DNA of 62,820 nt from Acidimicrobiia bacterium. Its GTDB lineage: Bacteria; Actinomycetota; Acidimicrobiia; Spongiisociales; JAHEDJ01. How positions within the stretch are numbered: the stretch's first letter is position 1; every line of letters begins with the position of its first letter. The stretch is from assembly GCA_029210695.1 (NCBI GenBank), contig JARGFH010000018.1:1-62820 (forward strand), given 5' to 3'. Of this stretch, positions 25,775-30,959 are shown one piece after another. The notes beneath the pieces were generated by a model, which saw nothing but the letters and a program-made list of their open reading frames with translations, searched no databases and was not told the DNA's origin. Both the position numbers and the translations under genes were made by a program.

Positions 25775-27691
25775 ATGAACAGAACTCTTCGTACGATCCT
25801 CGTCTACGGCGTAGTCGTCGTGCTCATGGTTGTGGTCGCCCAAACCTGGTTTGAAACAGGTGACAAGCCCGTTGAGATCACCACCAGCCAGTTCATCCAG
25901 GATGTCGAGGACGGCAAGATCGAAGAAGTCACGATGTTCACGCGCTCCGACATCGTCACGGGCGAGTACATCGACCAGGGTGACACGACGCCGGACTTCA
26001 CGTTCTCGTATCCGCCGGAGTACGAAGGGACGCTGACCGAGGTACTCGTGGCCAACGATGTCCCGATGTTCCCCGAATCCGACACCTCGCTGTGGGAAAT
26101 CGTGATCAGCCTGCTGCCGTGGCTCTTCTTGATCGGCTTCATGATCTTCATATTCACGCAGATGCAGGGCGGCGGAAACCGCGTCATGCAGTTCGGGAAA
26201 GCGAAGGCGAAACAGGTCACCCGCGATACGCCGAAGGTTACGTTCGAAGATGTGGCGGGGGTCGAAGAAGCCATCGAGGAGCTCGAGGAGATCAAGGACT
26301 TCCTTCAGAATCCTGCCAAGTTCCGCGCCTTGGGCGCCAAGATCCCCAAAGGGGTGCTGTTGTACGGACCACCCGGCACGGGCAAGACCCTGCTGGCGCG
26401 GGCCATCGCCGGTGAGGCCGGCGTTCCGTTCTTCTCGATCTCGGGCTCCGACTTCGTTGAGATGTTCGTCGGCGTCGGTGCGAGTCGTGTACGTGACCTC
26501 TTCGAGCAGGCGAAGGCGCAAGCTCCGGCCATCATCTTCATCGACGAGATCGATGCGGTTGGACGGCATCGCGGCGCCGGTCTCGGTGGCGGTCACGACG
26601 AGCGTGAGCAGACCCTCAACCAGTTGCTGGTCGAGTTGGACGGTTTCGATGTCAATACCGGTGTGATCGTGATCGCGGGCACCAACCGGCCGGATATTCT
26701 GGATCCGGCGCTGCTGCGTCCCGGGCGCTTTGATCGGCAGATCGTGGTCGACCGCCCCGACCTCAAGGGTCGCCAGGCCATCCTCGCAGTCCATTCCCGC
26801 GGCAAGCCCCTCGACGACGAGATCGATATCGCAGTTCTGGCCCGCCAGACTCCCGGTTTCACCGGGGCAGATCTCGCCAACCTCATCAACGAGGCTGCCA
26901 TTCTGGCCGCCCGTCGCGACAAGAAGCGGGTCGGGATGGAAGAACTCGAAGAGGCCATCGATCGCGTGATTGCCGGTCCGGAGCGGAAGAGCCGGGTCAT
27001 CTCAGAGAGCGAGCGGAAGCTGACCGCATATCACGAAGGTGGTCACGCGCTGGTCGGCTTTGCTCTGCCGAACCTCGACCCCATTCACAAAGTGACCATC
27101 ATCCCCCGTGGTCGCAGTGGCGGCTACACGATGGCTCTGCCCACCGAGGATCGCTTCTTCAAGCGGCGCAGCGAGATGGTCGACGAACTGGCCTATTCGC
27201 TTGGTGGGAGAACGGCAGAAGAGCTCGTGTTCGGCGACCCTTCGACTGGTGCCAGCAACGACATCGACACGGCGACCGATCTCGCTCGCAAGATGGTGAT
27301 GGAGTACGGCATGAGCGACCGCCTCGGCCCCATGAAGTACGGGAAGGCGGCCGGTGAGGTGTTCCTCGGTCGCGACTATTCCCGGCAGCCGGACTACTCC
27401 GACGAGGTCGCCTCTTTCATCGACGCAGAGGTCCGCAAGCTCATCAGTCAAGCGCACGACGAGGCCCGGCAGATCCTCAGCACTCATGAGGACGCTCTCC
27501 ATCGCATCGCGGCCGAGCTGATGGACAAGGAGACCGTCGACGCCGCCGAAGTCGCCAAGATCTTCTTCGACGTCCCCAAGTGGGAGCACACGGCAGATGG
27601 AGCGATGCGCATTCAGATGCCCAACTTGGCGTCGTCCGAGGACGCCGTCGCCGCCGTACACATCACGACAGACCCGGGTCCCAACGTCTGA
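25775..27691 (+). CDS. ftsH: ATP-dependent zinc metalloprotease FtsH
   Basis: 638 aa. Two N-terminal membrane helices (residues 7-22 and about 107-129) flank a small extracytoplasmic domain. The AAA+ domain has Walker A GPPGTGKT (198-205), Walker [22 protein letters not shown] and pore motif FVG. The protease zinc site is HEGGH (420-424). It degrades membrane and unstable soluble proteins. The start ATG 25775 follows a TACCGT box. folE begins 11 nt downstream. Confidence 0.97.
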
Positions 27692-27701
27692 GGAGCAGCA
27701 C

Positions 27702-28286
27702 ATGGCCGACGCTGAGAACGGTGTTCAACTGGACGCAATCGCTGATGCCGTGCGAGTGATACTCGAGAGTATCGGGGAAGACGTCGAGCGGGAGGGCCTG
27801 CGCGACACTCCCCGGCGGGTTGCACGTATGTATGCAGAGGTGTTCGGTGGATTGAGCATCGATCCGGAGAGCATCGTCAGCACTGTATTCGATGACGAGA
27901 ACCACGAAGAGATGGTGATGGTCAAAGACATTCCGTTCTATTCGATGTGCGAGCACCACCTGATTCCATTCCACGGCAAGGCCCACGTGGCCTACCTGCC
28001 CAAGGGGCGCCTCACCGGCCTCTCCAAGCTCGCCCGCCTGGTCGAAGCGTTCGCGCGCCGGCCGCAGCTCCAGGAACGGTTGACGACCCAGATCGCAGAC
28101 ACCCTGATGGATGGGCTGGACCCACACGGCGTCCTCGTGGTGGTGGAGGCCGAGCACCTGTGCATGAGCATGCGCGGCGTGAGGAAACCGGGTTCGATCA
28201 CCGTCACCTCTGCGGTGAGGGGCAGTTTCTGTGATCGTGACGCAACGAGGGCAGAGGCCTTTGCGCTGATCTACGGCGGCCGTTGA
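27702..28286 (+). CDS. folE: GTP cyclohydrolase I
   Basis: 194 aa, first enzyme of folate synthesis (GTP to dihydroneopterin triphosphate). Motifs: [15 protein letters not shown], zinc and active-site [20 protein letters not shown], second zinc Cys in [15 protein letters not shown] lies 7 nt before ATG 27702. It is first of a tight folE-folP-(phosphatase-like)-folB-folK cluster, with a TTGA overlap to folP. Confidence 0.97.
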
Positions 28287-29146
28287 CGTTCGTGGACTGG
28301 CACCTGCGGACGAGAATTCTCAGCAACCGCCCGCACACACTCGTCATGGGCGTTGTCAACGTCACTCCCGACTCTTTTTCCGATGGCGGTGACTTCTACG
28401 AGACAGCCGGGGCCATTGCACGCGGACGGGAGATCTCCCGTCAAGGGGCAGACATCGTGGATGTTGGAGGTGAGTCGACCCGTCCCGGCGCCGCGCTCGT
28501 ATCAGAGGAAGAGGAATCGGCCCGCGTGATTCCCGTGGTTCGGGCGCTTGCAGAGGAGGGCATCGTCGTGTCGGTTGACACGGCCAAAGCGTCCGTTGCG
28601 GCGGGTGCCCTGGCCGCCGGTGCTGAGATCGTCAACGATGTTTCGGCGCTGGGGGATCCGGCGATGGCGGCGGTAGTGGCCGACTACGGAGCCGGAATCA
28701 TCCTCATGCACATGCAAGGCACGCCCTCGACAATGCAAGACGCTCCTCGCTACGACGACGTATCAATGGAGGTCCGACGATCGCTTTTGGCGAGTGCCGC
28801 CCTTGCCGAGTCGGAGGGGATCGATCGCAATCGCATCTGCCTCGACCCCGGTATCGGTTTCGGGAAGACCATCGACCATAACTTGACCCTGCTGCATGAT
28901 CTAGGTGAGTTTGTGTCGATCGGCTATCCGATCGTGGTAGGGATCTCGCGCAAATCCTTCATCGGGGCGATCGCAGGGCTGCCCGACGCTCGTGACCGAG
29001 ATGCCGCCACCGCCGGAACCACCGCGCTGGCGGTGGCAGCCGGAGTGTTGGCGGTTCGCGTCCATGATGTACCCGGGAACCTCCAATCTGCTCGCGTTGC
29101 CGACGCTATTGTGCGGCTGAAGGTCTTCGACGAGGTAGGGGGATGA
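28283..29146 (+). CDS. folP: Dihydropteroate synthase
   Basis: 287 aa TIM-barrel enzyme joining pABA and dihydropterin diphosphate. [41 protein letters not shown] and SRKSFIG are all present. The TTG 28283 start overlaps the folE stop; GTG 28292 is possible. It ends with an ATGA overlap to the next gene. Confidence 0.96.
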
Positions 29147-29622
29147 CCGGTCTCAAGCCAAGAGAATTCGTGTGGGTGATCGCCGGTCGACTCGCCGTGT
29201 GTGAGCGCATCGGCGGCTACGGCTTTCAGCACCGCCGGGTGCGCCGCGAAGAAGAGATCAACTGGCTGCGCAATGAGGCCAAGATCACCACCGTCCTATC
29301 GCTTCTCCCGGGCAACCAGAATCTGAACTCTTACGCGGATGCCGGTTTCAAGGTTCTGCATCGTCCGTTTCTCCCCGAGAACGAAGACGGTGACCTCCTC
29401 CCATTCTTTGGACTGCTCGACGAGGCACTGGCCGACAGGAACTCGGTGGTGCTCGTGCATCGGGACTTCATAGACGAGGGGATGGGCGGTCTCCTCGCCG
29501 GATATCTGGTTTACGCTGCCTACGTCGACGGCCCCATCATGGCTTCGGCAATCATTCAGGAGATCCTCGGCCGGCCGCTTGGTCCGAGAGCACGGGCGAT
29601 GATCCGGGTGGCGGAGCGCTAG
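29143..29622 (+). CDS. Catalytically degenerate tyrosine/dual-specificity-phosphatase-like protein in folate operon
   Basis: 159 aa. The layout resembles a dual-specificity phosphatase: an acid-loop-like HRPFLPENEDGD, then VVLVHRDFIDEGMGG followed by a long helix (LLAGYLVYAAYV). In active enzymes the P-loop is HC(X)5R; here Cys is Arg107 and the closing Arg is Gly113, so Cys-based chemistry is impossible. It is coupled to folP by ATGA and lies 18 nt before folB. It may be a binding or regulatory pseudophosphatase; the function is unknown. The fold assignment is my reading of motif spacing. Confidence 0.55.
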   Translation: MTGLKPREFVWVIAGRLAVCERIGGYGFQHRRVRREEEINWLRNEAKITTVLSLLPGNQNLNSYADAGFKVLHRPFLPENEDGDLLPFFGLLDEALADRNSVVLVHRDFIDEGMGGLLAGYLVYAAYVDGPIMASAIIQEILGRPLGPRARAMIRVAER

Positions 29623-29640: not shown

Positions 29641-30000
29641 ATGACCGACTGCATTCGCCTGCGGGGTATCGAGGTCTTCGCCTACCACGGGGTTCTGGCG
29701 GATGAGCAAGAACACGGCCAGATCTTTGTCGTTGATGTCGATGTGTTCTTGGACCTTTCGAAGGCCGCGGCCTCTGATGACCTCGCCGCCACCGTTCACT
29801 ACGGGGAACTTGCGCAGGCAATCCATGACCGGGTGGCAGAAGAGCGGTGGGACCTGATCGAGCGGGTTGCCGGCAGGGTTGCCGACCTGGTGTTGGAGGA
29901 TGAGCGAGTGCACCGCGTCACCGTCACGGTTCATAAGCCGTCGGCTCCTATCAGCGTGCCGTTTTCGGATGTTGCAGTAACCGTCAAGAGGCCACGGTGA
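29641..30000 (+). CDS. folB: Dihydroneopterin aldolase
   Basis: 119 aa. CIRLRGIEVFAYHGVLADEQ with the catalytic-region Glu/Tyr and HGVL, VHYGELAQAI, and VTVTVHKPSAPI are FolB signatures. It splits dihydroneopterin to hydroxymethyldihydropterin. It overlaps folK by GTGA. Confidence 0.95.
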   Translation: MTDCIRLRGIEVFAYHGVLADEQEHGQIFVVDVDVFLDLSKAAASDDLAATVHYGELAQAIHDRVAEERWDLIERVAGRVADLVLEDERVHRVTVTVHKPSAPISVPFSDVAVTVKRPR

Positions 30001-30959
30001 CCAGGGCGGCGATTGCGCTCGGCTCCAATCTGGGCGATCGACTCGAGAACCTCGAGTTTGCCGTTGAAGCCCTGGGCTCGCTCGGAGAACTCGTCGGCGT
30101 CTCCGACCTGTATGAGACGGCTCCCGTTGGAGGTCCGGAGCAGGGCGCCTACCTGAACGCAGTCGCGATTCTGGAGACCGGGATGGCGGCTCGGAACCTC
30201 CTCGCCGCATTGCACGACGTCGAACACCTGCGTGGGCGCACGCGGAGTTTCCGGTGGGAGGCCAGGACACTCGACCTCGATCTGCTTCTCTACGGAATGG
30301 AAACCCATTCCGACGAGGCCTGCACCATCCCGCACCCGCGCCTGCTCGAACGCCGATTCGTCATCGAGCCGCTCCTCAACGTATGGCCGGATGCCGTCCT
30401 TCCCGACGGAACCGGGGTTGCGACCTACGCGGCGGCCGTTGAGGATCAGGAGGTGACCGGTCTGGGAGCCTGGTGGTCGCTCGTCCCACCGTCGAAAGGC
30501 TTCCACGGTCGCGGTGGCTGGTGGGTCGTTGCCCAGGTTGTGATGATTCTGGCGGTGGTCCTGGCGCTCGGCGCGGGTGGGCCGTCGCTTCCGGGCGGAG
30601 ACGCACTCAGCCTGGCAGGCATCGCCGTCATTGCCGCAGGGGTGATCGAGTCTGCGCTCGGCTTGTTCCAACTCGGCGAGCGCCTGACGCCCTTTCCGGA
30701 ACCGCTTGATGGAGGCGGGATGGTGCACGGTGGTGTCTACGCAGCCGTCCGGCACCCGATTTACGGTGGAATCGTGGTCGCCTTGGTCGGCGCCGCCTTG
30801 TTCAAGTTGTCGGTTGTCGGCCTCGGGGCGGGAGTGATGGCAGGCGTGTTCTTCTGGTGGAAGGCGAGCAAGGAAGAGGCGCGTCTGCTCAGGCGGTTCC
30901 CGCAGTATGCCGACTATCGGGCCAGGACCAAGGCGCGCTTGATTCCCTGGGTCATCTAG
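29997..30959 (+). CDS. folK: FolK (HPPK) fused to a C-terminal ICMT/PEMT-like membrane domain
   Basis: 320 aa, twice the usual FolK length. Residues 1-150 are a normal pyrophosphokinase: ALGSNLGDR, YETAPVGGPEQGAYLN, RTLDLDLLLYG, IPHPRLLERRFV. Residues about 170-320 hold three or four membrane helices and the end GGVYAAVRHPIYGG...KEEARLLRRFPQYADYRAR, the SAM-binding core of isoprenylcysteine-carboxyl/phospholipid methyltransferases (RHP, then EE). The frame is open throughout with no internal start needed. The fused activity is unknown. The stop TAG shares the palindrome CTAG with the stop of the convergent MFS gene. Confidence 0.88.
   Translation: MTRAAIALGSNLGDRLENLEFAVEALGSLGELVGVSDLYETAPVGGPEQGAYLNAVAILETGMAARNLLAALHDVEHLRGRTRSFRWEARTLDLDLLLYGMETHSDEACTIPHPRLLERRFVIEPLLNVWPDAVLPDGTGVATYAAAVEDQEVTGLGAWWSLVPPSKGFHGRGGWWVVAQVVMILAVVLALGAGGPSLPGGDALSLAGIAVIAAGVIESALGLFQLGERLTPFPEPLDGGGMVHGGVYAAVRHPIYGGIVVALVGAALFKLSVVGLGAGVMAGVFFWWKASKEEARLLRRFPQYADYRARTKARLIPWVI

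Follow-up and report, generated by a model that had tools for sequence, protein, structure and literature searches.

FolK fused to a membrane methyltransferase domain of the PEMT/ICMT type in an order of uncultured Acidimicrobiia

Introduction

HPPK (FolK) has been studied as a soluble antifolate target, and folate one-carbon units feed SAM synthesis. The known members of the PEMT/ICMT superfamily act on lipids, prenylcysteines or thiols. FolK is generally a soluble, stand-alone enzyme. Fusions of the types FolB–FolK, FolK–FolP and FolB–FolK–FolP have also been described (PMC4224340, PMC2994781, PMC1971073), in which FolK is joined to other soluble folate-pathway enzymes. In the present study we describe a FolK that likewise shares one chain with another enzyme, but whose partner is a membrane methyltransferase domain with no known role in folate metabolism. 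The gene lies in a stretch of 62,820 nucleotides from an Acidimicrobiia bacterium (contig JARGFH010000018.1 of assembly GCA_029210695.1), which we refer to as the window. Both domains come from known families and their combination appears to be undescribed; the preliminary description of this DNA had known of no such fusion, and our literature search, with most subscription journals outside its coverage, found no FolK–methyltransferase or FolK–membrane fusion either.

Results

The fused gene and its folate operon

The fused gene belongs to a conserved cluster in the window, arranged as follows.

25775–27691, + strand: ftsH (named from sequence), first gene of the conserved cluster, at the same place in relatives
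27699–28286, + strand: folE (PF01227, E 1e-76)
28283–29146, + strand: folP (PF00809, E 2e-83)
29143–29622, + strand: conserved gene X between folP and folB, found in relatives' operons
29641–30000, + strand: folB (PF02152, E 2.3e-37), its stop overlapping the start codon of the fusion
29997–30959, + strand: folK–methyltransferase fusion gene, a single open frame of 320 codons plus stop

The order ftsH–folE–folP–X–folB–folK is common to much of the taxonomic order, and is usually followed by DUF2520 and panC genes; in those genomes of families f2, f7 and f8 that we looked at, folE and folB are absent from the cluster. The start codon of the fusion is GTG and overlaps the folB stop by 4 nt, and the 320-amino-acid translation of 29997–30959 contains no internal stop.

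Several other features of folate synthesis in this order were observed. The product of gene X, of about 160 amino acids, shows 50–79% identity across the folate operons of the order and is matched by no model of Pfam or NCBIfam. A search with its profile pointed to dual-specificity phosphatases (25xa, E 5.7e-6), but with Arg or Lys at the position of the catalytic Cys (VHR), and it is possibly a pseudophosphatase. Many f2, f7 and f8 genomes carry a second HPPK; where the main folate operon of such genomes was inspected, it was without folE and folB. At locus L151:405–1505 a second HPPK forms one chain with GTP cyclohydrolase I (folK–folE) and adjoins a folB. In addition, six genomes of genus g34 (G058 and G114–G118), which are 94–96% complete, gave no HPPK and no FolP match, and are probably those of folate auxotrophs in an otherwise folate-making order.

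A complete HPPK followed by a membrane methyltransferase domain

The protein is divided into the following parts.

30012–30386, + strand: HPPK (FolK) domain, residues 6–130 (PF01288, TIGR01498)
30417–30500, + strand: linker, about residues 141–168 (approx. 28 residues; 25–34 residues in intact fused relatives, a truncated copy excepted)
30501–30956, + strand: PEMT/ICMT-type membrane methyltransferase domain, residues 169–320 (PF04191; profile match to 4a2n and 5vg9)
30750–30764, + strand: RHPIY motif, residues 252–256, conserved in fused and stand-alone domains
30873–30878, + strand: EE motif, residues 293–294, unchanged in all of 33 fused and 81 stand-alone domains

The HPPK half was recognized with high scores by both PF01288 (E 2.8e-35, 121.6 bits against a cut-off of 25.7, residues 6–130) and TIGR01498 folK (126.1 bits against 54.1). 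Residues R81, W87, R90, D93, D95, H113 and R119 are invariant in 18 relatives and align, via a match to a solved structure, with the active site of E. coli HPPK, which we take to consist of R82, W89, R92, D95, D97, H115 and R121. Contacts of Asp95 and Trp89 in the E. coli enzyme have been described (PMC3261883). This half resembles known FolK enzymes (solved, e.g., as 1cbk and 1dy3) in its complete domain, retained active-site residues and place in a folate operon, but differs from them in continuing in frame into a membrane domain. It is the sole HPPK of the window's genome, which is 97.9% complete.

The C-terminal half passed the PF04191 PEMT model (residues 207–299; 30.2 bits, gathering score 25), but neither PF04140 ICMT (20.5 bits against 24) nor NF040696 (ICMT; 41.3 against 160), and gave no match at E≤1 to NF045656 (MddA, methanethiol S-methyltransferase). 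A profile of this region matched ICMTs of solved structure (4a2n, E 5e-13, and 5vg9) as well as the end of AtTam46 (8xku). The alignment with 4a2n begins at residue 40 of that protein, the first segment of which has no counterpart in the fusion. The domain shares with the PEMT/ICMT superfamily (PF04191, PF04140) the RHPxY...EE core and the hydrophobic segments, with the difference that an HPPK precedes them. Of the earlier wording 'ICMT/phospholipid-methyltransferase-like', the broader PEMT part stands, whereas 'ICMT' is too specific. Hydropathy peaks near residues 184, 212 and 259–282 would fit an HPPK on the cytoplasmic side and, provided that the last peak is a hairpin, four helices, a topology that we infer from hydropathy. 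A DUF3180 membrane protein is encoded downstream of folK in other Actinobacteria; we considered whether the C-terminal part might be this domain (PF11377) and rejected it, as no genome of the order passed the cut-off.

Residues R252, H253, P254, Y256, K289, E293 and E294 are invariant in the 33 fused domains, as they are in stand-alone ones; for the R, H, P and Y of RHPIY this extends over 33 fused and 81 stand-alone domains, the contig-collection members among them having been picked with a pattern that includes RHPIYG. Comparisons of congeneric genome pairs gave dN/dS values of 0.06–0.20 for the HPPK domain and 0.19–0.24 for the methyltransferase domain, with constraint on the linker relaxed. 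These data show that both domains are under purifying selection and retain their catalytic motifs. Together, the frame and the PF01288, TIGR01498 and PF04191 matches bear out the initial reading of a complete HPPK continued in frame by membrane segments and an RHP...EE core.

Distribution and junction of the fusion

One uninterrupted match across both domains was found in 33 of the 138 genomes of the order, including that of the window; in these assemblies the match covers at least 291 of the 316 profile positions, with no stop inside. The check proposed at the outset, to look for the same fusion in relatives, thus showed it in the same frame and with the same linker length in 33 separate assemblies. 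Among the carriers is G041, a single 1.70-Mb contig; the Acidimicrobiia MAG chromosome CP070681.1 also bears the fusion. Two further genomes were considered as separate-gene cases and rejected: G034 has two N bases at the HPPK–methyltransferase junction, and in G047 the fusion runs in one frame until it is ended by the contig end. Counting these two as carriers, the fusion is present in every HPPK-bearing genome searched of the window's genus and of the neighbouring family f4, contrary to the refuting case first named, separate genes in all close relatives. We conclude that the fusion of FolK with a membrane methyltransferase is genuine.

In wider samples the fusion was found only in this order. 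Searching 395 genomes across the class at E≤1e-75 yielded 33 fusions, all in the same order, and a phylum sample of 396 genomes yielded two, again both from that order; among the best 80 methyltransferase loci from 84,980 species genomes, the fusion was confined to loci that match contigs of the order in length or cluster with its fused domains in the tree. It is present in about 34 species of one order of uncultured Acidimicrobiia. Close methyltransferase homologues without HPPK occur in many phyla. These stand-alone homologues, from the same order, from Chloroflexota and from other phyla, have the same domain and the same invariant residues, but no HPPK, and their neighbours are unrelated to folate.

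Within the order, f2, f7 and f8 carry HPPK alone, with the methyltransferase gene elsewhere in the genome, and six genomes (G026, G040, G054, G127, G133 and G134) carry HPPK with no methyltransferase profile match at E≤1e-3. When the intact fused genomes were searched with the methyltransferase profile the second-best match stayed below 40 bits, so that the fused form appears to take the place of the stand-alone one, and vice versa. The neighbours of the stand-alone copies vary: in several f2 and f8 genomes (L118, L124, L126, L127, L135 and L137) the gene adjoins clpB, mostly divergently, in f7 it adjoins genes for cystathionine gamma-lyase and a PALP enzyme, in some Chloroflexi it lies near TauE and rhodanese genes, and other copies adjoin a UvrD-type helicase. 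We therefore discarded this neighbourhood as a guide to function, there being no single theme.

Trees put the fused methyltransferase domains in two or three groups, while a single fused clade was not rejected (p-AU 0.234). In an outgroup-rooted FtsH tree the unfused f8 and f2 stand at the base, the root being weakly supported. The simplest account would be that a stand-alone gene, older than the fusion, was joined to folK once, and that f6, f7, G026 and G035 later lost the fusion or came to have separate genes. Repeated fusion, with more than one origin, may also be considered, given that the best tree requires 2–3 changes of the fused label.

Discussion

The explanation that we favour, and consider fairly probable, is that the gene encodes a bifunctional inner-membrane enzyme of one origin, consisting of the sole FolK and an anchoring PEMT/ICMT-type methyltransferase, with halves that are probably catalytically independent. 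The N-terminal HPPK would be the only FolK of the cell. In the cytoplasm it would move pyrophosphate from ATP onto 6-hydroxymethyl-dihydropterin, and its product would supply FolP, which is encoded in the same cluster. The C-terminal domain, with probably four membrane helices, would bind SAM and methylate an acceptor, probably lipid-soluble or a thiol, and would at the same time anchor HPPK at the membrane. Most likely, a stand-alone methyltransferase gene landed in the folate operon immediately downstream of folK, whose stop was lost; the fusion would have been passed on from there, some lineages losing it or separating its halves again. Because each half occurs without the other in relatives, the two reactions are expected to be independent, and sister families in which the methyltransferase stands elsewhere, or is lacking while folK is kept, indicate that the two activities are separable. 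The likely effects of the fusion would then be co-expression and anchoring. The tethering of FolK to the membrane, as first proposed, would follow from this architecture; in contrast, the further proposal that a folate enzyme is functionally joined to a SAM-dependent activity is not supported, in view of the unlinked genes of some families and the several genomes with HPPK and no such methyltransferase.

The acceptor could be a thiol or sulfide, with the methyltransferase half acting as an S-methyltransferase like MddA and its pairing with HPPK being metabolically meaningless. This would fit the stand-alone homologues that adjoin PALP and cystathionine gamma-lyase genes in f7, and those of some Chloroflexi with TauE and rhodanese genes nearby; one f7 homologue also matched MddA weakly (E 1.8e-5), a long way short of the cut-off. 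However, the Chloroflexi cases are possibly one lineage, other stand-alone copies lie beside clpB or a UvrD-type helicase, and the window protein itself does not match MddA at E≤1; we consider this reading rather unlikely as a whole, and treat the sulfur-metabolism neighbours of some stand-alone copies as a lead towards thiol methylation. It is also improbable that the membrane domain is a mere anchor, its catalysis lost or unused, by which HPPK would be kept at the membrane together with the folate enzymes. Judged by hydropathy, fusion alone would place HPPK there, but the invariance of R252, H253, P254, Y256, K289, E293 and E294 and a dN/dS of 0.19–0.24 are not expected of such an anchor. 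We give an equally small chance to a coupling of folate synthesis with SAM use in a two-headed membrane enzyme, for example by SAM/SAH regulation of HPPK or by production of a methylated pterin.

In its specific form, a two-step pathway enzyme whose methyltransferase half would take a pterin or folate intermediate of the HPPK step and yield a methylated pterin, coupling seems decidedly improbable. It draws on the location of the partner, a folate enzyme, inside a folate operon, and on the other fused FolK proteins, in which partners from a single pathway are combined (PMC4224340, PMC2994781). Genus g34, without HPPK and FolP, is also without the methyltransferase, which loss of one fused gene would explain as well. 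Against it, several relatives have HPPK and no such methyltransferase, in sister families the gene has clpB or cystathionine gamma-lyase as its neighbour, at a distance from folate genes, and close homologues are found in many phyla without HPPK. Moreover, the known substrates of the superfamily are lipids, prenylcysteines and thiols.

Two separate proteins might also be made from the gene, HPPK from the first start and the methyltransferase by an internal start or by cleavage. A start codon with a Shine–Dalgarno-like stretch does occur near the linker in 11 of the 34 fused genes, including a GTG in the window, but such starts vary in position and codon between genomes and are absent from the other 23, and no stop separates the halves in any fused gene. 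We therefore rejected a conserved internal start in the linker, and regard two products as very unlikely. An assembly or frame error at the junction, suggested by the 181 contigs of the window's genome and the N gap of G034, is negligible in view of the recurrence of frame and linker length in 33 separate assemblies, one of them a single-contig genome.

On the favoured reading of a bifunctional membrane enzyme, HPPK is joined to a membrane SAM enzyme on one chain and has been retained so across several families, and the joining itself could be useful. Since folate one-carbon units feed SAM synthesis, the fusion offers a testable case for folate–SAM coupling; if there is no coupling, it would illustrate clearly that unrelated activities can be stably fused. 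In either case, it gives a handle on an uncharacterised and widespread bacterial PEMT-like family.
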